DNA of 64,000 nt from Candidatus Aquidulcis sp. (GTDB lineage: Bacteria; Chloroflexota; Anaerolineae; Anaerolineales; UBA4823). The DNA lies in contig DYIZ01000013.1 of assembly GCA_020723385.1 (NCBI GenBank), positions 1-64,000 on the forward strand. Reading direction: 5' to 3'. Positions 37,265-59,122 of this stretch are shown one piece after another (the stretch's first letter is position 1; each line of letters opens with the position of its first letter). The translations under genes and the position numbers were made by a program. A model generated the notes under the pieces. The model was not told where the DNA came from and searched no databases. It was given only the letters and a program-made list of their open reading frames with translations.

Positions 37265-38365
37265 ATGAATGCTCAATCCGCCCCAATTTTGGGTTTCGTC
37301 ACAGAATATTTCGGCCGGCAGCGTTCGGTCAAGCCCGCCCAGTTCGCAGATAACGAGCTGATCAAGCCGATCACGCCGTTGAAAACTTACTTCCTTTTCG
37401 GCGCTTATCTCAACCTTCCCCCAAATGTTGCTGCGGTTGTCACTTACACCGATGGGCAGCAAACCATGTTCCGCACGGGCGGCTTGCTTACTTTGCCGCC
37501 CGGCTCATATGGGTTGCAATATGTGGATATACGCCAGCAGCGGACTTACCTGCCCGACGTGCGCGCCGACACGCTCGACGCCTGGCAGGTAACCCTGGCG
37601 CTCGACATCACCTGGCAGGTGCGCACACCCTTGCAGATCGTCACAACGAACCGGCCTTACCAGGCGCTCATCAACGAATGCCGCGCCGCGGCGATCAATT
37701 TTATTCAATCGAGGAACCACGATAAATTGATCCCGGCGCGGGAAGGCACGCCTCTTGAAGATACCGAAATCTCCGAAGCTATCCTGAACCAGTTGCGGGC
37801 CAGCCCAACCCTCAATGGTTTCCATATTTACGGCATCAAAGTCCTCGAACGGCGCGGCGACCCGCTTCGGCTGGATAAAATTCGCGAATCCAATGTTGAG
37901 CAAACCAAATACCAGCAAGCCCTGCTCGTGGAAAACGAAAAACTCAAGCTCGAGCTACAAAAGCTCCAGCAGCAAGTTTCTCTCACCCAGCAGCGCGGTG
38001 AGGTGGCTATGCAGGAGGCGCGCGCCAGCCAGCAGGTCAGCAAAGCCCAGGCCGAATCGCAAGCCGATGTGTCGGACATCTTGCTGCGCATGAGACGGCA
38101 GGCCATCGAGTTGGAAAACCTCAGCCGGGAGCAGAAATTCGAGCAGGAGAAATTCCTCAAAGGCCTCGATACGATCAGCCAGTTCGCAAGCATGTTCACC
38201 CAGCTTCAGATGACGCCCGGCCTGCAGCGCAGCATGGATGATAATTCGCTGGACGCGATGACCCGTCTGATGAAAGCCATGCTGCAAGCCCTTCCGGCAA
38301 ACGAAAGCGGCGCGCCAACGACCAATGTGCTCCCGGCCGTCAACTTGCGCAGCCTGGATAAATAG
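37265..38365 (+). CDS. SPFH/Band 7-like protein with C-terminal coiled coil
   Basis: 366 aa; beta-rich N-terminus (LPPGSYGLQYVDIRQQRTYLPDVRADTLDAWQVTLALDITWQV) followed by a long Gln/Glu/Lys-rich helix. Confidence 0.6.
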   Translation: MNAQSAPILGFVTEYFGRQRSVKPAQFADNELIKPITPLKTYFLFGAYLNLPPNVAAVVTYTDGQQTMFRTGGLLTLPPGSYGLQYVDIRQQRTYLPDVRADTLDAWQVTLALDITWQVRTPLQIVTTNRPYQALINECRAAAINFIQSRNHDKLIPAREGTPLEDTEISEAILNQLRASPTLNGFHIYGIKVLERRGDPLRLDKIRESNVEQTKYQQALLVENEKLKLELQKLQQQVSLTQQRGEVAMQEARASQQVSKAQAESQADVSDILLRMRRQAIELENLSREQKFEQEKFLKGLDTISQFASMFTQLQMTPGLQRSMDDNSLDAMTRLMKAMLQALPANESGAPTTNVLPAVNLRSLDK

Positions 38366-38392
38366 GCCTATTTCATTTGTCTGACAGGCGTG

Positions 38393-38448
38393 CTGAGCGC
38401 AGTCGAAGCATGCCGCTGATGATCGCTGCACCCTTCGACTGCGCTCAG
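38393..38448. repeat. inverted repeat CTGAGCGCAGTCGAAG...CTTCGACTGCGCTCAG
   Basis: Perfect 16-bp arms; same family at 46294-46360. Confidence 0.85.
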
Positions 38449-38491
38449 GGTGCTTTTCACAGAAATTGGGGACGACAAATAAGGAGGCGCA

Positions 38492-39688
38492 TTGGACATT
38501 GGTTGGCTGGAAATAACCCCGGGACGGCAAGAGAATTGGGAAACACTCGAACCAGCCTTCGGCCAGCCAGCAGGCGATGGCTGGCATGCCCAATTTGCTT
38601 CACTCATTCGTGTCAGGCCCATGGATCAACGCGCCAAACGCAAGTGGGGCTTCAACCTCGGCGCGCTGCTCGACGAGGCCATCGAACGCCAGCGGCTGTT
38701 CATCCAATCCCGCCATTTTTCCGGCGTCCCCGAAATGGGCGACGAGCCGCCCGAGCGGCGCACCATCGCCCTGCGCGCTATCCATCATCCCCAGGCCGAA
38801 CGCCTGCAGCTTGTGCTGGTCGCCAAAGTCTGGGGGGCGACCCTCGAGGCAGTCCGCCAGGCCGCCACAGATCATTGGCACGAGATCCATTCGACCTTCC
38901 CCACCGATTATGAGCTGATTCCCGCCCGCTCGCTGGAATCTTTCTACAATCTGGCCGGCTGGCGCATCCTGCAAGACGCCGCCCAGCCCAACACCATCGC
39001 TGAAATCCAACGCTACGAAAACGTGCTCAATACCGGCAGCGACAAAATGTACCTGCTCGGAGCGTGGAAATATACCAACACCTCCAACGAGCAAACCTGG
39101 CGCACCCTGCAAGGCGCAGACCGGCGCATTCTGTACAATGTCACCCTGCGCCCCACTGTGCTGGACGAGTTGGAACAAGCCGCCCTGCTGGTTATCGCCC
39201 AATATGCCGAGAAAATTGCCAGCCAGGCCACGCTGCCCAACGTCAAACCCTATGCGGAGTTCGCTGCTAAAAACTACGCTTACCTGCTCCAACAATTGCG
39301 TAAACCTTTCATTGTCCAGGCGCAGGTTGTTGCACCGGAAGGTTTGCCGGAATATCTGCCGCGCAACATCGGTTACGCCATGACTTACCGCAACGATCGC
39401 GAGCCGACCACACCGGGATTTCAGATCACTCGCCCGGCAAACGCTGCTGAAGTCGCCGCCTGGCGGGCCAATCTCATCTGGCTCGAACCCGAAGTTGCTA
39501 CCGGGCCAGTAATTGACCCGCGTTTTGTCCGGGTGCGGAAGATGACCGATGCTTACGAGGCGCGCGGCCTGCTCTGCCTGCCCTTCCCGCCCGACAGCGA
39601 ACTGCCGGACGTGCATTTCGCTGAAAAAATCGAAGAGCCGGAAGTTCGTAGTGACGGCATTAGCCGTCCGGAAACGGGCGGCGACTAA
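38492..39688 (+). CDS. hypothetical protein; last ~16 codons and stop lie within a repeat
   Basis: 398 aa; TTG start with AAGGAGG RBS; no recognised domain. Confidence 0.65.
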   Translation: MDIGWLEITPGRQENWETLEPAFGQPAGDGWHAQFASLIRVRPMDQRAKRKWGFNLGALLDEAIERQRLFIQSRHFSGVPEMGDEPPERRTIALRAIHHPQAERLQLVLVAKVWGATLEAVRQAATDHWHEIHSTFPTDYELIPARSLESFYNLAGWRILQDAAQPNTIAEIQRYENVLNTGSDKMYLLGAWKYTNTSNEQTWRTLQGADRRILYNVTLRPTVLDELEQAALLVIAQYAEKIASQATLPNVKPYAEFAAKNYAYLLQQLRKPFIVQAQVVAPEGLPEYLPRNIGYAMTYRNDREPTTPGFQITRPANAAEVAAWRANLIWLEPEVATGPVIDPRFVRVRKMTDAYEARGLLCLPFPPDSELPDVHFAEKIEEPEVRSDGISRPETGGD

Positions 39689-39707
39689 AGTCGCTACTAC
39701 GAACTTC
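39641..39707. repeat. inverted repeat GAAGTTCGTAGT...ACTACGAACTTC with two internal hairpins
   Basis: GACGGCATTAGCCGTC and GCGACTAAAGTCGC inner hairpins read directly. Confidence 0.8.
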
Positions 39708-39735
39708 ACGACTGAAGCCGCAACTACAAACCAGC

Positions 39736-41955
39736 ATGACCACTTCCAATTCCGTCACCTTCACCGTCGTCAAACATCTGCCTTTCGGGCTGCTGGTTCA
39801 GCTCGAAGATGGGCGCAGCGGCGTCATCCGGGTACGCGAGACCTCGTGGAGCGCCGAGGAGCGTCAAAACTGGCAGCAGATGTTCCCGGCGGGGTGGCAA
39901 TCACGCGCCGTGATCCTGAAAATGGGCGACGACGGACACCTGGAATTGAGCCTGCGATTGGCGCGCAACGATCCCTGGGAGCAGGTTCCGGGCCGCTACC
40001 GCAAGGGGCAGGTGATCCAGGGAGTTGTCACCGGCCTGACGAACTACGGTGTGTTCGTCCAGCTTACCGAGGGCGTCACTGGCTTGCTGCACGCCTCGCA
40101 GCTCCCCGATTGGGTCCAGCCCAACCCATTGGAATTATTCTGGCCCGGCGATCACGTGCGGGTGAAGATCGAACAAATAGACCTGGCGCACCGCCGTATC
40201 AGCCTGGGGCTGGCGACATCTGCCTTGCCAATAGAACCCCAACCGGTTCAGCCGCGCCCCACCCGGCCTGCCACCACCCCACTCGCCGGCAGGTCATCCC
40301 CCAGAATCACGCTCGACCAATTCCTGCGATCCGGATTCCCCCGGCAGTTCATCCTCATCGTCGAGGATGATCCCATTCAATCCACGGCGGTTGCCACCTG
40401 GTTGAGCAAAGTTGGCCAGCGGGTGGTTGTGGCGGCCAATGGGGCTGAAGCGCTTGCCTGGCTCGACCGGGAATGCCCCGACATCGCCCTGGTAGACCTT
40501 GGGCTGCCCGATACCCTGGGGAGCGACCTGGCCCGCCAGATCCGCCAGCGCTGGCCGCAAGTGAAATGCACCCTCGCCACCGACTGGGCGCGCGCCGACG
40601 AGCACACCCGCGATCTGGAAACGTTGAGCGCGGCGGGTGTGGGGCTGCTGCTCAAGCCGCTGCTGCCCGATGATCTGCTGGATCTATTGCAAAATCGAAC
40701 GCTTCCGGCTTCGGTATTAACCGGCGAGCCGATTCAGCCTGCCCTGCGTCAGTTCGATCTGCCCTCGCCGGGACGACAGGCTATGCAAGCTGCGCTGCTC
40801 GCCCTGCTCGACCGCTGCCGGTCGCAAACCAGCTTCGAGGCAGCCTTTCTCTTCGCGGTGGACACTGCCCAGCGAACGGTCGAGATCGTGCAGCGCAGCG
40901 GAGGCGGCGCGATCAATAAGGATGCTTTGCCGTCCGTCATCTACAGCCCGGTGCGTGACGCTGCCGAAGACGGGGAAGTGGTGGCAGTGGAGCGGCTGAC
41001 CGAGCAAGATGCCCGCCGGTTTCGCTACCTGCTGGATTTCTACGGGCTGGCGGCGTGCCTGGGCGTGCCGGTTCCGGCGGGCGCGCCGGTGAAGCACGCC
41101 CTGATGCTGCTCGACAGCCGGACGCGGGCGATCCCCTCCGAAGCGGTTGCTTTCACTCAATCGGCGGCGCTTGCCCTGGGGGCGCTGCTCGACCGGCAGG
41201 CATTCCAAGAGCAGGCTATTCTCGTTCAGCGCACTGCCCTGCTCGGACACCTGACCCGCGGGCTGGTGCATGAGATCAACCATCAACTCAACCCGTTGAT
41301 CTTCTCTGCCGACAGCCTGGAAAAATCACTGGAGGACATCTCTGCGCGGGCCGCTTCGCCCGAGAGCGTGAGGCAAAAGGCGCAGGAAGCTTCCGGCTAC
41401 CTGGCCGATGTGCAAAAAGCGGCGCTCTCGCTGACCAGCACGACGCGGCAGTTCGGGCGTATCCTCACCCGCAACCGTCCGCAGCTTCTGCGGGTGGATG
41501 AGCTGATCCTCGAAACGGCTTATTTGCTGAAGGATGCCAGCCGCCAGGCGAAGGTGAGCATCGAGCTGGCAGCGACCAACGCGCTGGTGTTGGTGCGCAG
41601 TGAAGGTTCGGCCATCGAGCAGGTTTTACTCAACGTGCTGCTCAACGCCGTTCAGCAAATCGGCGAATGCCGCCCCACCAGCGGCGGGTGGGTACAGGTG
41701 CGTATCGAAACCTTTACCCCACCGTCGGGGCAGATCATGTGCCGGATATCGGTCGAAGATAATGGGCCGGGGATTCACCTGCGCCTATGGGAGCAAATCT
41801 TCGAGATTGGTTATTCCACCCGCAAGGAAGGCAGCGGGATGGGGTTATATATCTCCCGCAGCCTGATGGAAGCTGCAGGGGGCAAAATCTATGTGGCGGA
41901 CAGCCACATTTTGAGCGGGACGACTTTTGCGCTCGAGCTGCCCTGCCAGGTATGA
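39736..41955 (+). CDS. S1-S1-REC-GAF-histidine kinase hybrid
   Basis: 739 aa; two S1-type motifs (GQVIQGVVTGLTNYGVFVQLTEGVTGLLHASQL), REC (FILIVEDD...DIALVDLGLPD), H-box GLVHEINHQLNP, HATPase VEDNGPGIHLRLWEQIFEIGYSTRKEGSGMGLYIS. Confidence 0.85.
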   Translation: MTTSNSVTFTVVKHLPFGLLVQLEDGRSGVIRVRETSWSAEERQNWQQMFPAGWQSRAVILKMGDDGHLELSLRLARNDPWEQVPGRYRKGQVIQGVVTGLTNYGVFVQLTEGVTGLLHASQLPDWVQPNPLELFWPGDHVRVKIEQIDLAHRRISLGLATSALPIEPQPVQPRPTRPATTPLAGRSSPRITLDQFLRSGFPRQFILIVEDDPIQSTAVATWLSKVGQRVVVAANGAEALAWLDRECPDIALVDLGLPDTLGSDLARQIRQRWPQVKCTLATDWARADEHTRDLETLSAAGVGLLLKPLLPDDLLDLLQNRTLPASVLTGEPIQPALRQFDLPSPGRQAMQAALLALLDRCRSQTSFEAAFLFAVDTAQRTVEIVQRSGGGAINKDALPSVIYSPVRDAAEDGEVVAVERLTEQDARRFRYLLDFYGLAACLGVPVPAGAPVKHALMLLDSRTRAIPSEAVAFTQSAALALGALLDRQAFQEQAILVQRTALLGHLTRGLVHEINHQLNPLIFSADSLEKSLEDISARAASPESVRQKAQEASGYLADVQKAALSLTSTTRQFGRILTRNRPQLLRVDELILETAYLLKDASRQAKVSIELAATNALVLVRSEGSAIEQVLLNVLLNAVQQIGECRPTSGGWVQVRIETFTPPSGQIMCRISVEDNGPGIHLRLWEQIFEIGYSTRKEGSGMGLYISRSLMEAAGGKIYVADSHILSGTTFALELPCQV

Positions 41956-41964
41956 GAGGCCTGC

Positions 41965-44900
41965 ATGTGCCGTGTTTTGATCCTCGATGACGATCCTTTC
42001 TTTTGCAAAACGATAGCCGAGCCGCTCAACCGGGTTGACGAAGGGCGCAGTTACCACACGGTGAGCGCCACGCGCGTCGAAGATGCGCTGCGGGAAGTCC
42101 GGCTGGCGGTTGAAAGCAGTAAGCCGTTCGATGTTTTGTTGATTGACCTGCGCTTGAGTGAAAACCAGGATGGCATCGAGGTGATGCAAACCCTGCTGCA
42201 CCTCAGCCCATCCTCGGACGCCATTATCCTGACCGGTCTCGATGACAGCCCTGACGCCGGGCTGAGAGCCTACCAGGCCGGGGCTTACCGGTATATCTAC
42301 AAACCGGTGCATCCCAAAGAGCTGGTGCTGCTGCTCCAATCGCTCAGGAACTGGCGCAAAGTGCAGCATGAGCGCAGTTGGCTGCAAGTATTCAACGAAG
42401 TGGCTGAGCAGGCGCTGAACTGCCTCAGCTTTCAAGACGCGGCCCACATCTTTGCGCGCGGAGCGCTTCGGCTGGGTTTCGAGCGGGCGCGCCTGTTCGA
42501 ATTTACCTCCGATTACCCGGATATTTTGGTGGGCGTTTGCCAGGAGGGATGTGAAACGCTGGACGGGTTCGAAGGCGCTTTTTTTGCAATTGCTGAGGCC
42601 GCCTACTTCGAGCGGGCAATCCACACCCGGGAAATACAGTTCTTCAAGGGCCGTGAGTTGGGGCCTGCCTTGATGGAGCGCACCTTCGGAGAGTCTTTCT
42701 CCCCTCCGGTTGGCGAATGGGCCGTATTGCCTTTGTGGATCAGTGAAAAATTTGTCGGCATCATGGTTGTGGATAACGCCTCGCGCGATCATCGCATCCA
42801 CGAGGAGGATCGCAAGCAGTTGCGCCTCTACGCCCGGCTGGTTGCCGGGAACCTGGAGCGCATCCGGCTATATGAACAGGAACGCACCAGCCGCCAAAGA
42901 ATCGAATACATCGCCGAAGAAGCGCGCCGGACAGCCCAGCTCGAAAGCGAAGATGCCCATCGGTTGGACCTTTTGCAACGCGCCAGCGTGGAGCTGCTCA
43001 ACATCGCCAGCCAGGATGAGGAGAAGTTTTGGCTCACCCTGCTGACTCTGGCAACAGCGAACTACGCGCTGGGTTTCAACCGGGCATGGATCTTCCTGGC
43101 GGAAGCCGGCAACACCCGTTTGCAAGGCAAATTGGGCGTTGGCCACCTGGATTCCCAGCGCGCACAAACCGACTGGGAAAAAGACCTCGCCAGTCAGATG
43201 ACATTCGAGCGGTTCCTGCAAGCGCTGCACTCGAATACAGTACAACACACGCCGCTCGAAGGCATGACCCGTGATTTTGCGTTGGAGATCGGCCTGTTTG
43301 GCGGTCTGTTCAAAGAGGTGCTAGCGACAGGTCAGCGAGCAGTCCTGTCGTCAGAGGAAGCCCTGACTCTCCTGCCGGGGCCGTTCAACCGCAAATTCGC
43401 CCCGGGCGACTGCGCCGTGCTGCCCTTCCGGGCCGGTCGGATGGTCATCGGGGTCATGGTGGTAGATAACAAACACGATGGCAAGCCCATCCTGCCCACC
43501 ACCCTCGACCGGCTTGAGACTTTTATCAACATTGCCGGGCTGGTCTGGCAAAATCTGATCCAGCGCAAGCAGCGTGAGGCCCTGCTGGATGCATCGAACG
43601 TTATCCTGGGCAAAGCCAGCCAGCAGCCCCTGGGCGACTCACTGCGCCGTATCTGCGACTCGGCGCGCACCGTCACCGGGGCCGAATGGGCGATCATTTA
43701 CCCATTGAAACCCGGCGGCGGGCCGTATACCTACGATGTGCCCAACGTTGGATACTCCGGCGATTTCAACCCGGGTCAAATCAAGGATAAGCCCCGCCAG
43801 AAGGGCGTCGCGGCCCACATCCTGCGCAGCGGGACTCTGGTCGTGGGGGATGTCGGGCGCACAGAGAACTCGCCCAATGTCGAGAAACTGTCGCAGCACA
43901 AATTCATCCAGCGCAACGGCATCCACGCCCTGATCGGAACACCCATCCGCAGCGTCGAGCGGGAGGAAATGCTCGGAATCCTGTTCCTCAATTACCGCAC
44001 AGCGCAGACGTTCACGCAGCAAGAGATCATGCAAGCCGAGTCTTTCGCCAACCTGGCGGCGCTGGCAATCCTCAATGCCCGCCACGCCGAAAAGGTCAGC
44101 CGCAGCCTGAGAGAGGCGCTCTCCCGGGGCGAGACCAGCCAACGCGAGCTGGAGCTGATCCAGCGGGTGCTGGCTGACTCGTTGGCGAATTCCAGCGAGC
44201 CAGGTGTCATTCAAACTTTGCTGACCAACCTCCGCCGGGCGCTCGACCACCCCGACATCAACCCGGCGCTGGTTCTGCATCACTGGGAAGCCGAGACTCT
44301 GGAAGACGAACCCCGCGAAATCTTATTGCAATACACCCCCGGCCCCGAGGGCGGGGTCATCAAAACGCGCATGGGGGTCAGTGAAGACAAAACAATCCTG
44401 GCGATGCTGCGCAGCAAACATGCGGCAGTCAAAACAATCGGGCGCAGGCTGTATGCTCCCATTGCGTTGGGCCAGACGGTGATCGGCGTGCTATCTGCCG
44501 AGATGGACAACGCAGCCCAGGCCAAAGATTACCAGCCAGTTTTGGAGCGCTTCGCCTTTGCGGCTGCAATGGCGCTGGACAACGCCCGGCAGCAAACTAA
44601 TCTGCACCATGTTCTGGACGCCGCCCAGGCGGTGACCGCGCCAATCAACCTGAATCAGACCCTGACGGCCATCTTGCAAAGTGTGCGCAATGTTTCGCCC
44701 GATCTTTCGACGCTGACGCTGTGGTACCGCGACCCGGAGACTGATTGCATCAAAATGGGGGCGTCTTTCGGCGTGCGCAGTCTGGCCGATCTGACCCAGT
44801 TCGATCCGGGACCGGAGAGCATCGTCTCGAAGGTGATGCGCTCGAAGCGCCCAATTTGGGCTTCTCCCCTGAAAAAGCATCACTTGCTGTGGGGGCGTTT

Positions 44901-46275
44901 CGTTCGGGATGAGAAAATCGTCTCATCGGCGGCTTTCCCGTTGCGCGCCGACAATGTTGATGTGGGGGCGATGTTCTTCAACTACCGCAGCGAGCACTAC
45001 TTCACCGACGAGGAACAAACCATCTTCAACATATTGGCCGAAGTCGTTGCGGCCAGCATCCGCGATGCCCTGCACCTGGAAACCGAGCGCAAGGAGCGCC
45101 GCAGACTGGATGCCGCCCTGCGCACCACCTCCGCGGTCGGCGACTCACTGAGCCTGGTTCAGGTCTTGCAGAAGGTTCTCGCCTTACTGAGAGAATCCTT
45201 CCCCGATACGAATCCCTGCATCCAGACGTTCAACGAAGACGACAACCTGCTCGAATTCATCCCGGCGGTGTGGAATTATTACCGGATTGATAACGAACAA
45301 TACCGCGACCGGCGCAGCCTGCGGCTGGATGAGCGCGCTATCGCCTGCCGGGTGGCCCGGCAGACATTGGCAGAAAAGCGGATGGTCATCGAAAACATTG
45401 GCGATATTCGGGAGGATCCCGATTACCTGCCCCTCATCAGCCAGACCCTGTCTGAGTTGTGCGTCAGCCTGGTAGCCGGAGAAAATCTGCGCGGGGTGCT
45501 GGTGCTGGAACGCGCCCGGCTCAACGGCTTCGAGGCAGAAGATGTGGAATTGGTCAAGGCCATTGCCCAGCAGCTCAGCCTGGCGATCGAACGCGCGCGG
45601 CAGAACGACCAGCTCAGCTTTCGCAGTACCGTAGCGGCAGCCACTGCCTGGGCTGCGGACATCGCTCACGACATCAACCGCGAAGTCGGAGCGATCCGCC
45701 TTTATGCGCACTTGATCGGCGCCGAGAAGGACAAGCCTAACAATATTACTGGCTATGCGCAGAAAATCGAAGAGAGCGCGGCGCGCCTGGCTTCCGCCGG
45801 CCCCTGGCAAATCCCCGAGCCGCGTCCCGTCATCGTGGATACCTTCATCCAGCAATGGGTCGGCGAATTCACCCGCAACAGAAAAGAAACCATCCTGGTG
45901 CAATTCGATTTTCACTGCACCGGCGCAGCCATCCTGACCAACCCATTCGCTTTTCAGCGGGTGCTGCGCCAGCTTGTGCGCAATGCGGCGCAGGCGATGG
46001 AACAACAAACCGAACGAAAATTGACAGTGCGAACCTTCCCCGCCGAGGGGAATTTGATCGAAATCCGTTTCGAGGATACCGGCCCCGGGGTTGAGGAGGA
46101 TATCCGTCCGTTGATACTCCAGCAGCAAGTCACGACCAAATCGGGGCCGGGCGGTTACGGGCTGCTGCTCACCCGCCAGATGATCGAGGACATGGGCGGC
46201 AAGATTCGCCTCCTGCCCAGCCCGCCCGGGGCTGGCGCTATCTTCTCGATCAAGCTGCCCATCCGGCCCGGTTAG
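41965..46275 (+). CDS. REC-multi-GAF sensor histidine kinase
   Basis: 1436 aa; REC (RVLILDDDPFF...VLLIDLRLSENQDG), several GAF segments, IAHDINREVGAIRLYAHL, HATPase RFEDTGPGVEE...GPGGYGLLLTRQMIEDMGGKI. Confidence 0.85.
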   Translation: MCRVLILDDDPFFCKTIAEPLNRVDEGRSYHTVSATRVEDALREVRLAVESSKPFDVLLIDLRLSENQDGIEVMQTLLHLSPSSDAIILTGLDDSPDAGLRAYQAGAYRYIYKPVHPKELVLLLQSLRNWRKVQHERSWLQVFNEVAEQALNCLSFQDAAHIFARGALRLGFERARLFEFTSDYPDILVGVCQEGCETLDGFEGAFFAIAEAAYFERAIHTREIQFFKGRELGPALMERTFGESFSPPVGEWAVLPLWISEKFVGIMVVDNASRDHRIHEEDRKQLRLYARLVAGNLERIRLYEQERTSRQRIEYIAEEARRTAQLESEDAHRLDLLQRASVELLNIASQDEEKFWLTLLTLATANYALGFNRAWIFLAEAGNTRLQGKLGVGHLDSQRAQTDWEKDLASQMTFERFLQALHSNTVQHTPLEGMTRDFALEIGLFGGLFKEVLATGQRAVLSSEEALTLLPGPFNRKFAPGDCAVLPFRAGRMVIGVMVVDNKHDGKPILPTTLDRLETFINIAGLVWQNLIQRKQREALLDASNVILGKASQQPLGDSLRRICDSARTVTGAEWAIIYPLKPGGGPYTYDVPNVGYSGDFNPGQIKDKPRQKGVAAHILRSGTLVVGDVGRTENSPNVEKLSQHKFIQRNGIHALIGTPIRSVEREEMLGILFLNYRTAQTFTQQEIMQAESFANLAALAILNARHAEKVSRSLREALSRGETSQRELELIQRVLADSLANSSEPGVIQTLLTNLRRALDHPDINPALVLHHWEAETLEDEPREILLQYTPGPEGGVIKTRMGVSEDKTILAMLRSKHAAVKTIGRRLYAPIALGQTVIGVLSAEMDNAAQAKDYQPVLERFAFAAAMALDNARQQTNLHHVLDAAQAVTAPINLNQTLTAILQSVRNVSPDLSTLTLWYRDPETDCIKMGASFGVRSLADLTQFDPGPESIVSKVMRSKRPIWASPLKKHHLLWGRFVRDEKIVSSAAFPLRADNVDVGAMFFNYRSEHYFTDEEQTIFNILAEVVAASIRDALHLETERKERRRLDAALRTTSAVGDSLSLVQVLQKVLALLRESFPDTNPCIQTFNEDDNLLEFIPAVWNYYRIDNEQYRDRRSLRLDERAIACRVARQTLAEKRMVIENIGDIREDPDYLPLISQTLSELCVSLVAGENLRGVLVLERARLNGFEAEDVELVKAIAQQLSLAIERARQNDQLSFRSTVAAATAWAADIAHDINREVGAIRLYAHLIGAEKDKPNNITGYAQKIEESAARLASAGPWQIPEPRPVIVDTFIQQWVGEFTRNRKETILVQFDFHCTGAAILTNPFAFQRVLRQLVRNAAQAMEQQTERKLTVRTFPAEGNLIEIRFEDTGPGVEEDIRPLILQQQVTTKSGPGGYGLLLTRQMIEDMGGKIRLLPSPPGAGAIFSIKLPIRPG

Positions 46276-46293
46276 TTTGGGGTGCAAAACGGT

Positions 46294-46360
46294 CTTCGAC
46301 TGCGCTCAGACTGCCTGTATCTGCGCCCTGAGCACATAAGCGCCCTGAGCGCAGTCGAAG
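46294..46360. repeat. inverted repeat CTTCGACTGCGCTCAG...CTGAGCGCAGTCGAAG
   Basis: Perfect 16-bp arms. Confidence 0.85.
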
Positions 46361-46397
46361 GGTACTCTTGCACTAAATCTTATGGGAGTCAGCCATA

Positions 46398-48035: not shown

Positions 48036-48046
48036 CAGGAAAGGTG

Positions 48047-49402: not shown

Positions 49403-49412
49403 TCCCGACCGG

Positions 49413-51071
49413 TCAACCGAGAATCGGAGAGGCGGTATCGCTCTCTCCGATTCTCGGTTTTGTTATTGCTTGGTGATGCTGGCGGTGGACGACAGTCCAC
49501 CGTTTGCGGCGTGCGCATTTGAGACAGGGACTGTCGTCCCCTCTGAGCATAGGGGTGAGTGTGCGGTTCAGCTTTGCACGATCAGCACCGGCGAGACCCA
49601 GGTGAGGTCGTCTTTGTTGCGGCGGGCCAATTCCCGCCTCGAGCAGCGCCAGCTCGGGGCTGCCATGATTGGGCAAAGAACGGTAGAAAGCCAGAGTCAT
49701 CACCTGGGCGTTATCAACATCCACCGACCACCGGTACCCCAGAACAGACGGCACGCCGGATTGAATGATACTATCGGCAATTCCCAAGTAATCGTTGTAT
49801 AGCAAATCCTTCGAATCCCCGGTCGAGACTCCATCGCAGCACGTCAGGTGAACCAGGCGGGTATCCGAATTTTCGAGCAGGAAACGCAAATCATTCCCGG
49901 TCAATGGCATTACATTGCCTGAACGCTTCTTGTGTTCCCAAAAGAACAGACTGCTGGTTTCCGAAGAAGATTCTCGGTAGATGCCGTGCCCAATGTAATG
50001 GACAATGTGAAATTTGTTGGCGTTCAACAATTCCTGTACTTCATCACACGATGCATCATCAGTCGGCAGGTATTTCAGATCGAGCCACTTCAATGGAGAC
50101 AGCAATTTCGCCAGGGCAGCCCCCATCTGGTCAATTTCATCCAGCCTCGGCTCCGTGTTCGAGACGAGCAGTAAAACACGCAGCTTATTACCTGTGCGGA
50201 CAAGTTGCCGGATCAAATCAGCAGAAATTGGAACATGGTTGGTCATTACGCCTCGAACCTGGCGCGTCATTGGATGGAGCAATGCCAGATAGTCACTCGC
50301 ATCGTCAGAGAATAAAAATTCGAGTGGTAATCCCACCAGATCGCGGCTGGTCTCGAATGCCAACTGAAGTTTCTGATTCTGGCTAACGCTACCCAAAGCT
50401 CGTTGATAACTGCTCAATACTGGAGGGTGCTGCTCGAACAAGAGCCGGTATAGATCTCGCCCCACAGTCTTGAGAATGAATCGGCCCTTGAGCATATCCA
50501 AAATGTGCTCGTTGCCCCAGGCTTTGAACAAAGTCGAATCGAGATTTAGCAAATTGGGAGAATTGGTCTTAAATCGGATTTTTCCACTCACTTGCAGGTG
50601 AATCCGATGGCCCGGCTCTAAAGAAACGCACAATTCACAATCGTCGCGCTCATACCAAAACGCAGATAGTTGTTGAAATAACACCGCACGGCTGACATAT
50701 TCCAACAACAGGTTGATTTCATTCTTTTGCAGAAAGCCAAAGGCTGGAGAATTTCCTTTTTTGTCCGGCTCGAGCGCGCCGCGCACCATCTCTACATCCG
50801 CATAGCCAGTCAGAATGATCACAGCCGTCGCTGGATATTTTTCGTGGATGTGGTGCATAAGATGAATGCCATCGCGATTATCCTCGTCGGTATCATCCAG
50901 CCGGACATCCAAAACTGCTACTTGAAAAGATTCGGAAGATAGAATCGAGTTTGCTTCTTCCAAACTGGCTGCGGGTATCACATCATATCCATCAGAAACC
51001 AATAAACTCACTAACGTTTGCCTGACATCTGGGAAATCCTCAACAACTAAAATACGGCTTCGTTTTGTCAT
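49413..51071 (-). CDS. REC-CHAT (caspase-like) protease; apparent frameshift near C-terminus
   Basis: 552 aa; REC ILVVEDFPDVRQ...VAVLDVRLDDTDEDNRDG; CHAT His HYIGHGIY and Cys LVHLTCCDG; true C-terminus likely ends at 49568. Confidence 0.82.
   Translation of the reverse strand: MTKRSRILVVEDFPDVRQTLVSLLVSDGYDVIPAASLEEANSILSSESFQVAVLDVRLDDTDEDNRDGIHLMHHIHEKYPATAVIILTGYADVEMVRGALEPDKKGNSPAFGFLQKNEINLLLEYVSRAVLFQQLSAFWYERDDCELCVSLEPGHRIHLQVSGKIRFKTNSPNLLNLDSTLFKAWGNEHILDMLKGRFILKTVGRDLYRLLFEQHPPVLSSYQRALGSVSQNQKLQLAFETSRDLVGLPLEFLFSDDASDYLALLHPMTRQVRGVMTNHVPISADLIRQLVRTGNKLRVLLLVSNTEPRLDEIDQMGAALAKLLSPLKWLDLKYLPTDDASCDEVQELLNANKFHIVHYIGHGIYRESSSETSSLFFWEHKKRSGNVMPLTGNDLRFLLENSDTRLVHLTCCDGVSTGDSKDLLYNDYLGIADSIIQSGVPSVLGYRWSVDVDNAQVMTLAFYRSLPNHGSPELALLEAGIGPPQQRRPHLGLAGADRAKLNRTLTPMLRGDDSPCLKCARRKRWTVVHRQHHQAITKPRIGESDTASPILG
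49417..49457 (+). terminator. rho-independent terminator after the ATPase gene
   Basis: CCGAGAATCGGAGAG...CTCTCCGATTCTCGG followed by TTTTGTT. Confidence 0.85.
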
Positions 51072-51111
51072 GCATTTTCTCCACGCGAAGTAAGAATTCA
51101 GCCTGCAGACC

Positions 51112-52689
51112 CTAATGTTTCAGCCTCTCCGCCACCACGGCCGCGGTAATCAGGGCGTGGTCGCGGTGGGCTGGCTCCATGTCCATCACGGTGACGACTT
51201 TGATGGCATTGAACAGGACTCCGATGAGATAAGCCCGCGCGGCATCGGGGTCGTTTTCGGGCAAGGCCAGCTCGCGGATTTTTTGGATGGCCCGGTGGGC
51301 TTTGTCAATCTCCGGGATGGCTGCCAGCTCCGGTGGAAGCTCGACCCTGCGCAGGTCAGGTGCATTGTAGGAAAGACAATCCCACTCGTAGAGCCGCTTC
51401 CAGTCGCTGCTCTGCACCATCATGAAACGGGTGAAGGTTTCAAAGGAAACGTAATCTTGCAGCAACGGCCCCCGGTCGGCGACGGCGAAATCAATCAGCC
51501 AGGTTTCGTTCCGCTCGTCTACCAGCACGTTGTAGCCGTAGAGGTCGCCGTGAATGATGGCGATTTGGGAGTCGGCCCGCAAATCGGCTGTGAGAGCGAA
51601 TTTCATCGGATCGGGCAGAAGGAACTCTCCTCCCAGCCAGAGTCCCTGGCTGTCGCGGTGAAATGGGTGCCGCCCCGCCATCATGCGCTCCAACGAGCTT
51701 TGCATCACCTCGGATTTGAGGCGCACCAGCCGCATGTAGGTTTCACGCAGGTCGAGTTTGGAATGGGATGTAATAGCGTTACGCCGCCAGGGGAAGCAGG
51801 TTTCCTGGAATAGATTATCGAGGGCCGACAAAACCTGGGCGAGGCCGGCCTCCCGATAGAAGATGGCGAAATCGCGGGTGGCGCCCAAACCCGCGAAGGT
51901 GTACAAAATCCCCGAGAGGCTGCGGGTGCGGGCGAAATGAAGCGTCAGCGGCAGGCGATGCCCGCCCACAATGCCCTGAACCAGCTCCCGGTATTTATGG
52001 CGTTCTTTCTCGACCAGGGCGTGCTCCCCGATCTTGGCGACACGCGCCTCACCGCGTCCCCGCCCGCGGTACCAGGGGGTCACAGCAAAGACAGCCGCCC
52101 CGCTGTAGCCACGTTTCATTGGGCGAACCTCGATCCGCTCGCATTCGTAAAATAGCTTTTGTAGAATTTCGCAGGTTTCTTCAGCCACCTGCCCGGCATC
52201 GGGTTTGGCAATGTCAATAAAGCGGATTTTATTAGCCACATGCGGGATGAATTTTTCGGTATCTTCGATAATGAGTGCATCGTTGATCCGCAGAGCATTG
52301 TCGAATGCCCCTTTCACCTGCTCCGGCAACCGCATGATTTCTGATTTTTGGAGAAAACTGTAAGCCGGAGCAAAACCATTGGAATCCGGCTGGAGCGCTT
52401 CCTGCACCATCCCGACAGTGGCATACCCGGTGAGGATAATCACAGCGACGGTGGGGTCTATGCCATTGATATCGTGCATCAGGGTGATGCCATCCTGATT
52501 GTCCTCATCGGTGTCGTCCAGGCGCACATCCAGCACGGCCACGTGAAAACGCTCGGCCTCGAGCAGCTGCAAGGCTTCAAAACGGCTGGAAGCGGTGCGA
52601 ACGAGATAGCCTCTGTCAGAAAGCAAACCCGACAGCGTTGTACGCATGTCGGGCAGATCGTCAACGAGGAGAACGCGGCCTTTACACAT
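51112..52689 (-). CDS. REC fused to APH-like kinase domain
   Basis: 525 aa; REC VLLVDDLPDMR...VAVLDVRLDDTDEDNQDG; IIHGDLYGYNVLVDERNETWLIDFAVADRGP. Confidence 0.82.
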   Translation of the reverse strand: MCKGRVLLVDDLPDMRTTLSGLLSDRGYLVRTASSRFEALQLLEAERFHVAVLDVRLDDTDEDNQDGITLMHDINGIDPTVAVIILTGYATVGMVQEALQPDSNGFAPAYSFLQKSEIMRLPEQVKGAFDNALRINDALIIEDTEKFIPHVANKIRFIDIAKPDAGQVAEETCEILQKLFYECERIEVRPMKRGYSGAAVFAVTPWYRGRGRGEARVAKIGEHALVEKERHKYRELVQGIVGGHRLPLTLHFARTRSLSGILYTFAGLGATRDFAIFYREAGLAQVLSALDNLFQETCFPWRRNAITSHSKLDLRETYMRLVRLKSEVMQSSLERMMAGRHPFHRDSQGLWLGGEFLLPDPMKFALTADLRADSQIAIIHGDLYGYNVLVDERNETWLIDFAVADRGPLLQDYVSFETFTRFMMVQSSDWKRLYEWDCLSYNAPDLRRVELPPELAAIPEIDKAHRAIQKIRELALPENDPDAARAYLIGVLFNAIKVVTVMDMEPAHRDHALITAAVVAERLKH

Positions 52690-52709
52690 TGCCCCTCACA
52701 AGGTATTGG

Positions 52710-53138
52710 TTATGGTAACACACGTTGAATTGTGGTCAACAATTGTACGATATCGGACTTGGGCACAAAATCCGAAGCCAGCACAAGGCCAGATGCATCC
52801 GGGCCGCGGGTGTACTGCACATCTTCGGTTGTGCCATAGCCAGTGACGATGATGATTTTGATCGAGGGCCAACGGATGCGGATTTTCCGAGCCAGCAACA
52901 AGCCATCTTTGTTATCTTCGTCGGTATCATCCAGGCGCATGTCCACCAGCGCCAGATCGAAGCGACCTGTTTCAAGGATCTGAATCGCTTGATCTGAGGA
53001 TTCCGCCACCTCGACTTCGAATCCTTTGCCCGCCAGCAGGCCGCGCAGGGTAGCGCGCCAATCTGGAAGATCGTCAACCACCAACACCTTGCGCGGTTCT
53101 TTTGTCATGGGATTTCTCCTCGTGGGGATTCCGATCAC
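52710..53138 (-). CDS. stand-alone response-regulator receiver protein
   Basis: 142 aa; KVLVVDDLPDWR...LALVDMRLDDTDEDNKDG...IIIVTGYG...VPKSD. Confidence 0.9.
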   Translation of the reverse strand: MIGIPTRRNPMTKEPRKVLVVDDLPDWRATLRGLLAGKGFEVEVAESSDQAIQILETGRFDLALVDMRLDDTDEDNKDGLLLARKIRIRWPSIKIIIVTGYGTTEDVQYTRGPDASGLVLASDFVPKSDIVQLLTTIQRVLP

Positions 53139-53488
53139 GGCTTCGATGAGAGCGGCAGCAGCTCACGGACGCGATTGAGCAAATCCTCTGACCCAAAGGA
53201 TTTGGGGAAATAACGCACTGCACCCAGGCGGTAGGCGTTGAGCGCTTCCTGCGTGTTGGGCCTGACGGTGGTCACGATCACGCGCTTATCGGCATATTTC
53301 TCGCCGATTTCCTTGATGATATCCAAATGGCCCGAGCTGGCAATCACCAGGTCGAATTGGTCGTCTTCGAGCTGTTTCAAAGCTTCTTCGATGGTGGAGG
53401 CGACAACGATCTCGAATCGGCTCAAATCGTTCTTGACAAAATCAATCCAGCGTGGCTCGTCATCAATGATCAGGATTCGTGTTTTCAT
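53135..53488 (-). CDS. degenerate receiver (pseudo-REC) protein
   Basis: 117 aa; RILIIDDEPRW and YFPKSF retained, but phospho-acceptor region reads FDLVIASSGH. Confidence 0.8.
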   Translation of the reverse strand: MKTRILIIDDEPRWIDFVKNDLSRFEIVVASTIEEALKQLEDDQFDLVIASSGHLDIIKEIGEKYADKRVIVTTVRPNTQEALNAYRLGAVRYFPKSFGSEDLLNRVRELLPLSSKP

Positions 53489-56400
53489 GAGATGCCTCCT
53501 CCCCGGATGGGGATGGTCACCAGCATGACCGTACCCGTCATGCCGGTGGTCTCAATTGTAATATCACCGCCCAGGCTCTGCAAGATCAAGCGGCTCAACC
53601 ACAATCCCAGGCCGGAACCCATCCCTTGCTCTTTTGAGGAGACCGGCTTTACAAACAACCGCTGCCGGATCGAAGGAGGAATGCCAGGACCGGTATCCTG
53701 AACGTGGATCCGAATGAGGTTATCAACCAATTCGCTGGTTACTGTCAATGTACCGCCGCCAGCTTTCATCGCGCGGTAGGCGTTATCCACCAGGTTATTG
53801 ATAACTTCTGAAATTTGACCAATCGGCGCACGGATAACCGTAATTCTTTCATCGAGTTTCTTGACTGTCGTCACAAATGGATGTGTGGTGTCATCCTTCC
53901 AGGCTTTCTGAACCTGGCTGACAATTTCGTCTAGCACCGCATTGATATCTACATCTCCTATTTCGGCGTTTTGCAGCGGTTCTTGAATCCGTGTGATCAA
54001 TTGGGATGTGTACCGGACATTGCGCTCGACGATATCGAGGCACTCCTGAATGGTGGCGTCAGAAGTGTCCACGCGTTCACGCAGCCGGTAGAGGTTGGGA
54101 GGAATGATATTGAGGGTGTTATTGATGCGGTGCTGCAGGGCAGCGGTAGCTGTGCCGAGGACGCCCAACTGTTTATTGGCAATGATCTCTTGCTGAAGCT
54201 GCTTTGTCTCGTTATAGAGGCGAACATTCTCCAAAGCGATGACCGCAGCTTTGGCAATATCTTCCAAAATCTCGAGGTCTTGCTGGCGGAAGCGGTTTTC
54301 GATGGTGGGATGATCAATGCCAATGACACCCACAACCTGACCACCCTTAAGCATTGGAACGGCCATCCAGGAGGCCTTGATATCCTCTCGCTCAGTGCTA
54401 TGCCCAGGCTCAGCAAACCAATCTTCGATTTCTTTACGGGTAGAGAAAAAGATCGGTTTTTTGGTCTCGATGATATATTCTGTACGGCCCTTCCCCGAGA
54501 CTCGTGAAGGCAAATATTTGGGTTGATCGTTAGCGTAAACGAGAGCAAAACGAACCGTATCGGAAAGCTCATCGTACAGCGCAATATACATATTGCTGGT
54601 GTCCATCAATTTGGTGGCCTGATCCCGTATCAGGCTCAACAGTTCTGCCTCCGATAACTGAATATTCGAATTGACCGCGCGATTGAAATCTATCAGGGCC
54701 TCTAAGCGTTGATTGACATGGGTCATGTCGCGGACCATAAAAGCATTGTCCAGGGCGACGGCCGCCTGGTTAGCCATGGCTTGCAAAATTTCCTGATCAT
54801 CGCCGCTGAACACATAATCTTGAGTCGGGTGGTATGCGGCTACCACGCCCAAAACTTTCTCCCCCAACATCATCGGAACGCCTAACCAGGATGCTGAAAT
54901 GGCGCCTGTATATTCTTTATGACCTTTCTTATCGTACCACGCTCTCCCCTCCGCCTGCGTCGAATGTAAAATTGGCTCCTTTGTACGAATGATCTCTTCC
55001 GTTCTTCCTTGACCAGCTTTCCGGGGTTGATAGGCTTTTGTGCTGACAATATCTGCTTGTCTGCCGTTGAGGTAAACCAGACCAAAACGCACATAATCGG
55101 TTGCCTCGTCATACAAGGCGATATACATATTGCTCGTGTCCATCAGGTCACTGGCATGTTGATGAATCAAATCGAGCACCTGCTCTTCCGTCAAGCGCAA
55201 GCCTTGCGTCACCTCACTGCTGAATTTAACCAGCGCCTCTAGTTTTTGATTCCTGGCGTAAAACAGGCGTGAATTATCCAGCGCAATTGCAGCCTGGTTG
55301 GCGAGCGCTTGCAGGATGATTTTGTCATCCTCACTGTAAACATAATCATTGGTTGGATGATAAGTCGCAACCACACCGACAACTTTATCTGCGACCAGCA
55401 TCGGAACACCTAGCCACGATGCCAAAGGCTGGCCGATATATTCGCCGTGACCAGGTTGAGCATACCACGCCATACCTTCAGCTTGAGTAGCATGGAAAAG
55501 GGACCGTTTGGTCCGAATAATTTCCTCGGTCTTCCCGCTACCCGCCTTGCGGGGCTGCCAGCCTTTCTCTTGAGCTATTTCTATTTTCCTCCCGTCAACA
55601 AAGGCCAGCCCGAAACGAACGGTATCCGTTGTCTCGTCGTACAGGGCAATATACATATTTCTGGTATCCATCAACTGGCTGGCTTTATTGTGAATCAACT
55701 CGAGAATTTCATGCTCTCTGAGGCGAATGCCTTGGGTCAGCTCCAAACCAACTTCATTGACCGCCCGCGTAACTTCGTACAACCGGGCATTGCGCAGTGC
55801 AATGGCCGCCTGGTTAGCCAAAATCATCGCCAATTCCTGGGCGTCATCATTGAAAGCTTCTTTCTGCGCGCTTTCAGCATTGAGCACCCCCACCAGCTCA
55901 TTGCCGACCAGCAATGGCACATCCAGCTCAGCCAGGGTCGATTCGACATCCTTCCGGTAACGATCATCCACTGTCACATCATTGGCGCATATCAATTCAC
56001 GCTTTGCGGCAGCCCCCCCCATCAATCCCTCTCCAACCTTGATGCTGGCGCCTTTCGCCTTGCCAATCGCATACTGGAATTCCAGCTCATTGGTAGTTTT
56101 ATTCAGCAATGCAATCGAGCCAACCTCACACCCCAGCATTTCCAGCGATTGCGCCAGGATAGTCTGTAATAAAACATCCTTATCGAGAATACTGGCAATG
56201 TTTCGCGATATTTTTTGCAGCGTCTGCCGCTGCTCGAAGAGGCGCTTATTATGGATTGCAACAGCAGCCTGGCTGGCAAAAAGCTCGATCAACTCTCGTT
56301 GGGATGACAGGAAAGTCTGCGGCGTGCGGAAGTTGGCGAATAAGATGCCGACCAATTCGGTTCCAACGATCAGCGGGATAGCGGATGAGGATCTTACCTT

Positions 56401-57753
56401 CTCGCGAACAACGAACCGCTCTTCGGGACGATCTACTCGATCCACTGTGAAATCTTTGGTGAGATCGCCTGGCCCCTGGGAATTGAGAATGTAAGCCGGT
56501 TTCCGGCTCTTCACAATTGTCCAAACGACATCGTCGGCATAAACTTTATCTTTCGCTACAGTTTGAACAAATTTTTCACCGGCTTCGATGGGCGGCAATA
56601 CAAAATCATTTCGTTGTTGAATAAACTCATAAAAAACGACTAGGTCTGCACCCAGCACATTTTTGGCGGTTTCGACAATATCCTTGAGAATGTCCCGCAC
56701 CGTGATGGGCGTAGCCGGCTTGGTGAGCAGCGTCGAGCCGACTTCGTGCAGCCGCTTGAGCGCCTCGGCCCGGCGGGTGATCTGCTGGTACAGGCGGGCG
56801 TTGTCAATCGCCACCGCGGCCTGGTTGGCGAACACCCGGATGGTGTCTTTTTCCTCCTCGCTGAACTGGTGCGGGGTGCGGAAATTGACATACAGGATTC
56901 CCAAGACACGCTCGGTCACCTTGAGGGAAATCCCCATGAATGCTTTGATATCCTCTCGCTTGATAAATGGGCTTTCCAACATCGCAGGGTCTTCAGCCTG
57001 GATGTCACCACGCACCACTTCTAGCTCCCGTTTGACATAAACGGCCATCCCACCCTCACGGCGCGGTTTTTCGTTGAGATGCAGCGATGTATTCAACCCA
57101 AAAGCAGCCACGCTCTTTTGATCGTAAAATTCCTCGTTCTCGGGATCGTAAGGATACACCACCGCACAGTCAGCGCCGGTCACATCGCAAGCGCCCTTGA
57201 CCACTTGTTCCAGCACCTGCATCGGGGAACCAGAAGCCAACTGCTCGAACACCTCCCCCGTCTCGATCAACCGCCGCAGCGTCTTGCGCCGCTTTTCCGC
57301 CTCGAGTGTCAAACCCACCTGGGCGGAATAACTGCTCAACAATTGCCGCTCCAGCTCCGTAAACTCTTTGACCACAAACGAATAAATGCATACGACACCA
57401 ATCACCGTATCGCCCACTTTGATCGGGAGAATGAGCGCAGAACGCCAGCCCTGTTCCTTGGCAAAATCCTTGTATTTCCACAGCGGGTCGGTCAGAATAT
57501 CATGAACAATTACCATTTTGCCCGTCTGAAACGCCTGTCCGGTTACAGTTGGCGTGTCAAAACCCAGGAAGGCCGTTTCAATGTATGACTTTGGCAAACC
57601 GATCGCAGCCTTAATGCGAAGTGTGTGCGCGGTTTCATCCGGGACCCACACGCTGATGGGCAAATTGAGCACCCGATTGATCGATTCGACCATCGTTTGG
57701 AAAATATCTATCGGCTCGGTGGTTTTTCCGTTCTGCAATTGTTCGAGACCCAT
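53485..57753 (-). CDS. multi-GAF sensor histidine kinase
   Basis: ~1420 aa; repeated GAF units; LQHRINNTLNIIPPNLYRLRE and HATPase VQDTGPGIPPSIRQRLFVKPVSSKEQGMGSGLGLWLS; start at 57753 with GGAGG RBS. Confidence 0.88.
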   Translation of the reverse strand: MGLEQLQNGKTTEPIDIFQTMVESINRVLNLPISVWVPDETAHTLRIKAAIGLPKSYIETAFLGFDTPTVTGQAFQTGKMVIVHDILTDPLWKYKDFAKEQGWRSALILPIKVGDTVIGVVCIYSFVVKEFTELERQLLSSYSAQVGLTLEAEKRRKTLRRLIETGEVFEQLASGSPMQVLEQVVKGACDVTGADCAVVYPYDPENEEFYDQKSVAAFGLNTSLHLNEKPRREGGMAVYVKRELEVVRGDIQAEDPAMLESPFIKREDIKAFMGISLKVTERVLGILYVNFRTPHQFSEEEKDTIRVFANQAAVAIDNARLYQQITRRAEALKRLHEVGSTLLTKPATPITVRDILKDIVETAKNVLGADLVVFYEFIQQRNDFVLPPIEAGEKFVQTVAKDKVYADDVVWTIVKSRKPAYILNSQGPGDLTKDFTVDRVDRPEERFVVREKVRSSSAIPLIVGTELVGILFANFRTPQTFLSSQRELIELFASQAAVAIHNKRLFEQRQTLQKISRNIASILDKDVLLQTILAQSLEMLGCEVGSIALLNKTTNELEFQYAIGKAKGASIKVGEGLMGGAAAKRELICANDVTVDDRYRKDVESTLAELDVPLLVGNELVGVLNAESAQKEAFNDDAQELAMILANQAAIALRNARLYEVTRAVNEVGLELTQGIRLREHEILELIHNKASQLMDTRNMYIALYDETTDTVRFGLAFVDGRKIEIAQEKGWQPRKAGSGKTEEIIRTKRSLFHATQAEGMAWYAQPGHGEYIGQPLASWLGVPMLVADKVVGVVATYHPTNDYVYSEDDKIILQALANQAAIALDNSRLFYARNQKLEALVKFSSEVTQGLRLTEEQVLDLIHQHASDLMDTSNMYIALYDEATDYVRFGLVYLNGRQADIVSTKAYQPRKAGQGRTEEIIRTKEPILHSTQAEGRAWYDKKGHKEYTGAISASWLGVPMMLGEKVLGVVAAYHPTQDYVFSGDDQEILQAMANQAAVALDNAFMVRDMTHVNQRLEALIDFNRAVNSNIQLSEAELLSLIRDQATKLMDTSNMYIALYDELSDTVRFALVYANDQPKYLPSRVSGKGRTEYIIETKKPIFFSTRKEIEDWFAEPGHSTEREDIKASWMAVPMLKGGQVVGVIGIDHPTIENRFRQQDLEILEDIAKAAVIALENVRLYNETKQLQQEIIANKQLGVLGTATAALQHRINNTLNIIPPNLYRLRERVDTSDATIQECLDIVERNVRYTSQLITRIQEPLQNAEIGDVDINAVLDEIVSQVQKAWKDDTTHPFVTTVKKLDERITVIRAPIGQISEVINNLVDNAYRAMKAGGGTLTVTSELVDNLIRIHVQDTGPGIPPSIRQRLFVKPVSSKEQGMGSGLGLWLSRLILQSLGGDITIETTGMTGTVMLVTIPIRGGGIS

Positions 57754-57754
57754 T

Positions 57755-59122
57755 TCAATTCCTCCCGGCGCTGTGAACTGCCCGCCAGTGAAAATCATCC
57801 ACCAATGATTGGTGGTAATCGTTCTCCCGAAAAGCCAGCCCTCGCCGGTCCAGCTCCACTCGGGTGATCAAATGGGGCATTCCCCATTCCTTTTCCAGAT
57901 AAGCAATCTGACAACCGGTCAGCGTTTGCCCCTGGTTCTTATGCAATAATCGCTGGAAACACCGCTGGCCGCGCGCCAACGTTTTCGAAAATCGCTCGGT
58001 CTCGGCTGTGAAGTAAGCCAGCAAGCGCGCTTTCACCCAGGGGTCACAACAAACCGAGGAAACATTTTGCGAGACGCAATCCAACATGACCGGCAAAAAA
58101 TTGGGAGATTGGATTCCAAGCAAAAGCTGCCGCGTGATCACCCCGCGGATCAGCATTTTGATGATGCGCTGCCGCCCATCCTTGCCCGGAGGGGGCGCGC
58201 CGTCAGCCACCAGGCAGTACAGGCCCTTGAGATAGTCCGCTATGACCCGCTCGCTGGCTGCGGCCAGCGCCGCCGGAAGATCGTCTGCCCGGACGAAAGC
58301 GCGGATGCTCTCGATAATGGGCTGGTACAGATCGGTATCGAAGACGGAGGGCGCGTTTTGCAGGATCATCGCCACCCGCTCGGAGCCGATCACCGTCTCG
58401 GTGAAGGGATCGTTCATCGGGAGGAAGCTCCGCCGGTCGGGGCCAAGCTCCCGGCAGATGAACAGCGAATTGGAGAACTCCACGAACCGCCCGCATTTGC
58501 ATCCAGGGCGGCAATCCGCCCCACAGGCTCGCTCCCGCCCCCGGTCGTAGAAAAGCTCCGTGTTGGGGCCGCACTTCCGGGGAGGGGCGCTCCCCTCGAT
58601 GCCGTTACCCTGGATCCAGTAATTGCTCTCGGCCCCCAGCCCAACGACCCGCTCTTCGGGTACGCCCACTTCCAGCCAAGCCCGCCGGGCCAGGTCATCC
58701 TCGGGCATAGGATTCCCCATCACATCGCCGCCCTTGAAATACGATACCCAGATGCGTTCCCGGTTTACCCCCAACACCATCGTCGCCAGCCGCCACATCC
58801 GGCGGATCGTCTCGGTTTTGCCGTTCGGCCCGAACTCGAACGCCCCCGGCATCTCGAACAGGCTGAGATGTACATCATCCGACCCAACTTTGTCGAGATC
58901 GAAATGGCGAAAACACTCTTGAACCAACACATATTGGTTACCATCCCGGCGAGGCGATTGGGACAAGGAGGTTTCCACCTGCACCAGACCGGCGCTCATC
59001 ACGAACGACATTGGGATGGATGCATCCAGCAACGGGGCGCGGGGCAACTGCTGGTACCCCAGCCCCTCGTAATATTTGACAAAACGCTGGCGGATCACAT
59101 TCGAATCCATGCGGCCTTTCAC
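57755..59122 (-). CDS. stand-alone alanyl-tRNA synthetase catalytic-core-like protein
   Basis: 455 aa; IRQRFVKYYEGLGYQQLPRAPLL...FVMSAGLVQVE...LSLFEMPGAFEFG...ESNYWIQGNGIEGSAPPRKCGPNTELFYDRG parallels AlaRS class II motifs; no obvious editing or C-Ala domain. Confidence 0.75.
   Translation of the reverse strand: MKGRMDSNVIRQRFVKYYEGLGYQQLPRAPLLDASIPMSFVMSAGLVQVETSLSQSPRRDGNQYVLVQECFRHFDLDKVGSDDVHLSLFEMPGAFEFGPNGKTETIRRMWRLATMVLGVNRERIWVSYFKGGDVMGNPMPEDDLARRAWLEVGVPEERVVGLGAESNYWIQGNGIEGSAPPRKCGPNTELFYDRGRERACGADCRPGCKCGRFVEFSNSLFICRELGPDRRSFLPMNDPFTETVIGSERVAMILQNAPSVFDTDLYQPIIESIRAFVRADDLPAALAAASERVIADYLKGLYCLVADGAPPPGKDGRQRIIKMLIRGVITRQLLLGIQSPNFLPVMLDCVSQNVSSVCCDPWVKARLLAYFTAETERFSKTLARGQRCFQRLLHKNQGQTLTGCQIAYLEKEWGMPHLITRVELDRRGLAFRENDYHQSLVDDFHWRAVHSAGRN

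Follow-up and report, generated by a model that had tools for sequence, protein, structure and literature searches.

A putative histidine-kinase phosphorelay built around the APH-fold protein REC-TCAD9 in Chloroflexota

The window analyzed here is a stretch of 64,000 nucleotides from Candidatus Aquidulcis sp. (GenBank assembly GCA_020723385.1, contig DYIZ01000013.1, positions 1 to 64,000 of the forward strand). Its region 37265-59122 contains 12 genes in a row, arranged as two convergent arms with a strong hairpin between them (Table 1). This region is composed of two related modules built around REC-TCAD9—a protein with a receiver (REC) domain and an APH-fold kinase domain—together with an AlaRS-like passenger, and is not one conserved cluster: conservation as a cassette holds for arm 1, whereas arm 2 is a related branch apart from it and the AlaRS-like gene is a local neighbor. 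Judging from the sequences and the predicted folds, we lean slightly toward a cytoplasmic phosphorelay that licenses an APH-fold switch, the outputs of which (proteolytic, TIR or transcriptional) are interchangeable. The gene set, found so far only in Chloroflexota, points to a programmed response to stress or infection, the role in infection being read solely from the kinds of effector.

The pairing of REC-TCAD9 with histidine kinases was tallied over the non-redundant loci and the window. Among the 52 REC-bearing TCAD9 proteins, 51 have a histidine kinase on the same strand within three genes, and all 51 possess the acceptor aspartate; these rows share ancestry, some of them coming from related genomes, and do not represent 51 independent events. 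The sole REC-TCAD9 without a histidine kinase neighbor (L193) carries an asparagine at the acceptor position (VINARL). Furthermore, none of the six intact TCAD9 proteins lacking REC has a same-strand histidine kinase nearby (one is located at a truncated contig), and two more REC-less matches are the halves of split genes. Several loci in the tally came from kinase-based searches, which introduces a bias toward kinase neighbors; the loci retrieved by TCAD9 alone show the same pairing. REC-less TCAD9 is also seen fused to STAND-TPR. The source genome encodes a further TCAD9 protein without REC (G000:C174, L083), divergently from an AAA/STAND gene with a winged helix-turn-helix (wHTH). The pairing, along with the single exception lacking both the kinase and the acceptor aspartate, provides a clean testable prediction, and supplies a signal source for TCAD9, which has so far been known mainly as a module that accompanies effectors and has no cognate kinase.

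The APH catalytic Lys, Glu, HGD..N and Asp are invariant in 22 TCAD9 sequences (K226, E236, HGD386, N391 and D404 in the arm-1 protein, with the acceptor D70), and the REC-TCAD9 model (pLDDT 84) matches maltokinase, MTR kinase and APH in Foldseek. TCAD9 has a predicted APH-type fold with the catalytic residues of a kinase, and is apparently an active one. In the region as a whole, all three histidine kinases retain their H-boxes and N/G boxes, and the acceptor aspartate is kept in six of the seven receivers and lost in REC2. The kinase histidine, the ATP-binding boxes and the receiver aspartate of a two-component phosphorelay are therefore all present, as far as the sequences tell. No convincing membrane segment was detected in the cluster proteins, the only membrane-like stretch being a core strand of a GAF domain.

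Arm 1 is the conserved cassette, and its defining gene encodes an S1-REC-GAF-histidine kinase (S1HK). The S1HK alignment, in which the H512-E-x-N H-box and the SPVRDxAED motif are invariant, was searched against one genome per GTDB species. We obtained 27 true S1HK loci, all in Chloroflexota (Anaerolineales, Roseilinea, Thermoflexales, and Chloroflexia such as Viridilinea). The five further S1HK matches, in other phyla, are partial, weak and without the cassette; those phyla are covered by a pattern scan of genome contigs, which misses diverged members. The S1HK counts from a 400-genome search of the phylum are lower bounds, as only two candidates per genome were scored. In the loci uncut by contig ends, S1HK is followed by the REC-GAF-histidine kinase in 23/23 cases and by REC-TCAD9 in 22/22, with the AAA gene usually next; this fixed order indicates that the arrangement is more than chance. 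The gaps between the cassette genes are mostly -4 to +15 nt, and the kinase-kinase-TCAD9 core is retained in the diverged members. The distribution is patchy, as the cassette occurs in 18 of the 249 genomes of the class, including the window's own.

The remaining cassette genes are less uniform. In the AAA partner, the Walker A GK and a DEFD-type Walker B are conserved, and the wHTH is missing from most Anaerolineales copies; in the window, this gene most likely starts at the ATG at 48047, 12 nt past the REC-TCAD9 stop, rather than at the GTG at 47876. An SPFH gene and/or a gene for a VirB4 N-terminal-domain-like protein lies 5′ of the cassette in 14 loci (in one of them, the SPFH side is at a contig end), and nine loci have neither. 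The VirB4-like protein, which has no Pfam or NCBIfam match, has 14 homologues at the same cassette position, and the SPFH homologue lies immediately 5′ of its gene in 13 further loci. Its model (pLDDT 80) matches the VirB4/TrwK N-terminal domain in Foldseek with an E value of 2e-5 and a probability of 1.0; the resemblance is a remote one, because the TM-score is only 0.39.

The C-terminus of REC-TCAD9 varies by lineage, and no domain is added in the window or in most Anaerolineales. A C14 caspase is fused to REC-TCAD9 in L127/L158, CHAT with a ThsB-like TIR tail in L146, AAA in L203, and a wHTH in five diverged loci (L183, L184, L186, L187 and L189). The His/Cys pairs are present in the caspase and CHAT domains of these fusions. 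In L188 (5849-7975), REC, TCAD9 and TIR are combined in one protein, which is the clearest immune-type fusion. CHAT is scarce in the source genome, with six matches in 6.4 Mb. In a genome of the same order (L124, 858-7514), genes for AAA-CHAT, AAA-TPR and a radical SAM protein converge on the cassette, and the situation is similar in L139 and L150. The association with proteases was also put to a binomial estimate, on which we do not rely, since it assumed the gene number and the event count, and its probability ranged from 3e-5 to 0.07 across the background rates tried.

The first-pass annotation of this DNA had proposed a phosphorelay linked to conflict-type domains. This part of its reading is supported by the histidine kinase beside each of the 51 Asp-bearing REC-TCAD9 proteins, by the effector fusions in the relatives, and by the neighborhood check of arm 1, in which the homologues are collinear across the Chloroflexota loci and not merely scattered. 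Its reading frames, strands and domains agree with our open reading frame (ORF) and Pfam re-check, as do the 4-nt overlaps at 53135-53138 and 53485-53488. The domain tally comprises REC-CHAT, two REC-TCAD9/APH proteins, three histidine kinases, S1, AAA-wHTH and AlaRS-like, together with seven REC domains, where six had been counted.

Arm 2 runs head to tail in the order GAF7-histidine kinase, REC2, REC1, REC-TCAD9b and REC-CHAT. The receivers of REC-CHAT, REC-TCAD9b and REC1 form one clade (57, 44 and 40% identity), and this closeness in sequence suggests that the three share a kinase. Pairs of a histidine kinase and REC-TCAD9 of the arm-2 sort are found elsewhere, some with a stand-alone REC. 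REC-CHAT presents a different picture: no second fusion of the window's type was recovered in 251 phylum genomes. The His/Cys dyad, as read from the sequence, is present (H in YIGHG and C in LTCCDG). In the 552-residue ORF, the frame shifts by 1 nt near 49.63 kb, a little ahead of the natural end (about 49568), and the ORF as listed runs on into the hairpin at 49412-49465; read in the other frame, the gene closes with a normal CHAT tail, RELARRNKDDLTWVSPVLIVQS, and stops at 49568-49570.

On these grounds, we propose the following scheme. The cytoplasmic kinases would sense an internal signal through their GAF and S1 domains, the sensors being the S1HK and REC-GAFn-histidine kinase pair in arm 1 and the GAF7-histidine kinase in arm 2. 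The kinases, whose catalytic residues are present, would then phosphorylate the REC-TCAD9 receiver. The phosphorylated receiver would release the APH-fold domain, apparently an active kinase, which together with the adjacent AAA/STAND ATPase may commit the cell to a programmed response. The output would be modular: an effector fused to REC-TCAD9 in the relatives, the AAA-wHTH in arm 1, and the separate REC-CHAT in arm 2. In arm 2, one kinase probably serves the receivers of REC-CHAT, REC-TCAD9b and REC1, and REC1, as a phosphate sink or shuttle, probably sets a threshold, like DtcB in Detocs. More tentatively, and with less than even confidence, we suggest a new family of phosphorelay-triggered cell suicide, restricted to Chloroflexota and independent of MoxR-vWA, in which receiver-gated TCAD9 would be the central switch for an interchangeable caspase, CHAT or TIR. 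If true, histidine-kinase phosphorelays would directly control caspase-type and TIR effectors.

Among the known systems, Detocs—the kinase DtcA, the buffer receiver DtcB and the receiver-effector DtcC (PMC11728103, PMC11249213)—is the closest in logic. Arm 2 has the same operon layout of a kinase, stand-alone receivers and a receiver-effector (GAF7-histidine kinase, REC1/REC2 and REC-CHAT), a likeness read from the domain layout, whereas arm 1 has no stand-alone receiver. The effector of Detocs is a PNP ATP nucleosidase, whereas the effectors here are CHAT, caspase or TIR, and no PNP domain is present in the cluster. The APH-fold TCAD9 switch, the AAA/STAND partner, the GAF and S1 sensors, and the two kinases of arm 1 also set it apart from Detocs. 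The PADLOC-DB 2023 matches to the window proteins cover only generic REC or CHAT parts and none is named Detocs, although whether that database holds Detocs models was not checked. The variable effector modules of the iSTAND2/TERNS3 systems likewise draw on receiver, aminoglycoside-type kinase, TIR and STAND domains; the receivers there occur independently of histidine kinases (PMC8195603), whereas here a histidine kinase adjoins every Asp-bearing REC-TCAD9. Literature searches, which left out subscription papers and preprints, found no paper describing this gene set.

Several observations weigh against a killing system. In most cassettes, namely those of Anaerolineales, the operon encodes no killing domain, and several carry a wHTH only, so the ancestral role may be plain gene regulation. 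Each of the three types of death-effector fusion occurs in a single lineage, and the window's own CHAT gene is frameshifted. In addition, the cassettes are flanked by metabolic genes (PFOR, cytochrome c552, permease and sugar hydrolases) and not by defense islands, REC-TCAD9 has no match in the phage and plasmid collections, and S1HK has none in the viral contigs. An ordinary, if elaborate, regulatory phosphorelay for metabolism or stress, with transcriptional output through the wHTH and with sporadic CHAT, caspase and TIR fusions that have no role in death, would account for these flanks and for the lack of copies found on mobile elements, as well as for the wHTH joined either to REC-TCAD9 in the five divergent loci or to the AAA partner. 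We nevertheless regard it as rather unlikely, because three different death-type effectors occupy the same slot, a pattern typical of conflict systems, the source genome has few CHAT matches, and the cassette has a CHAT-carrying second arm beside it here and an AAA-CHAT gene nearby in L124.

Two further explanations appear much less probable than the licensed APH-fold switch. The about 12 consecutive genes in two convergent arms reported by the first-pass annotation are present, and the tight head-to-tail arm 2, with the AlaRS-like gene first, might speak for one invader-sensing conflict system comprising all of them. However, arm 1 occurs without arm 2, no other REC-CHAT was recovered in 251 phylum genomes, and the AlaRS-like protein forms a long and degenerate branch, with AlaRS-core proteins elsewhere lacking such kinase or CHAT neighbors, which makes a single conserved cluster very improbable. 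The other explanation is a branch of the VMAP/MoxR-vWA ternary conflict systems, for which the TCAD9 Pfam family is named (Kaur et al. 2020, PMC7159879). These systems include receivers and APH kinases among their effectors (PMC7159879, PMC8195603), and the likeness extends to STAND ATPases, caspase-type and TIR effectors, and a variable effector slot; moreover, two cluster proteins exceed the Pfam cut-off for TCAD9. Nevertheless, no MoxR AAA+ or vWA domain occurs among the 12 genes, which largely refutes this origin, and histidine kinases, integral here, are not reported among the vWA-linked effectors (PMC7159879); of all the explanations, we give this one the least credence.

Table 1. Features of the region 37265-59122 of the window
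Feature	Coordinates	Strand	Basis or remark
SPFH/Band 7 protein, first gene of the Anaerolineales-type cassette	37265..38365	+	Pfam PF01145, just at threshold
VirB4/TrwK N-terminal-domain-like protein, 398 residues, without ATPase domain	38492..39688	+	Predicted fold
S1-REC-GAF-histidine kinase (S1HK), cassette-defining, cytoplasmic	39736..41955	+	Pfam; no transmembrane segment
REC-GAFn-histidine kinase	41965..46275	+	Pfam
REC-TCAD9 (receiver and APH-fold kinase)	46398..48035	+	PF19974 E 2e-28, APH 4e-10
AAA/STAND-like ATPase with C-terminal OmpR-type winged helix	48047..49402	+	Pfam AAA_16, Trans_reg_C
Hairpin with T-rich tail on the + strand, likely terminator between arms	49412..49465		-36.1 kcal/mol
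REC-CHAT (receiver and caspase-like protease)	49413..51071	-	Pfam CHAT 1e-22, REC 4e-15
REC-TCAD9b	51112..52689	-	Pfam, above TCAD9 cut-off; REC 57% identical to that of REC-CHAT
Stand-alone REC1, possible phosphate sink or shuttle	52710..53138	-	Pfam
Stand-alone REC2, pseudo-receiver with acceptor Asp replaced	53135..53488	-	Pfam, REC comparison
GAFx7-histidine kinase (GAF7-HK)	53485..57798	-	7 GAF, HATPase; QHRIN H-box
AlaRS-core-like protein without editing domain, degenerate	57755..59122	-	PF01411 8e-62

The AlaRS-like gene at the right end of the region is probably a local neighbor and not part of the system. The class II core is present. The protein has ETVIGSER instead of the motif 3 DTGMGLER and EKEWGMP in place of the YDTYGFP region, and positions in the region contacting tRNA-Ala are altered. 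Its membership in the signaling system, as proposed earlier, does not hold, since short AlaRS or AlaRS-core proteins elsewhere are not accompanied by kinases or CHAT proteins of the window's kind; this missing co-occurrence and the degenerate long branch rule it out as a conserved component. An assignment to a short-AlaRS clade was also rejected, as the tree sets the window's protein apart on a very long branch. The source assembly, which is 95.6% complete, yielded no full-length AlaRS. Another protein of this genome (G000:C117, L082), which might form a split AlaRS with the AlaRS-like protein, looks AlaX-like, with tRNA_SAD and DHHA1 domains.

The region is flanked in the window by sugar-degradation genes and dnaE, and not by a defense island. 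The sugar-degradation region beside the cluster (3733-37111) contains genes for GH1, three GH94, GH3, GH123, an ABC transporter and a binding protein. On the right, the long + strand gene from 59487 onward reads, by eye, as the DNA polymerase III alpha subunit (dnaE). The interval that separates dnaE from the AlaRS-like gene contains two copies of a direct repeat, each about 72 bp long (59135-59286; 67/72 identical, offset 76).
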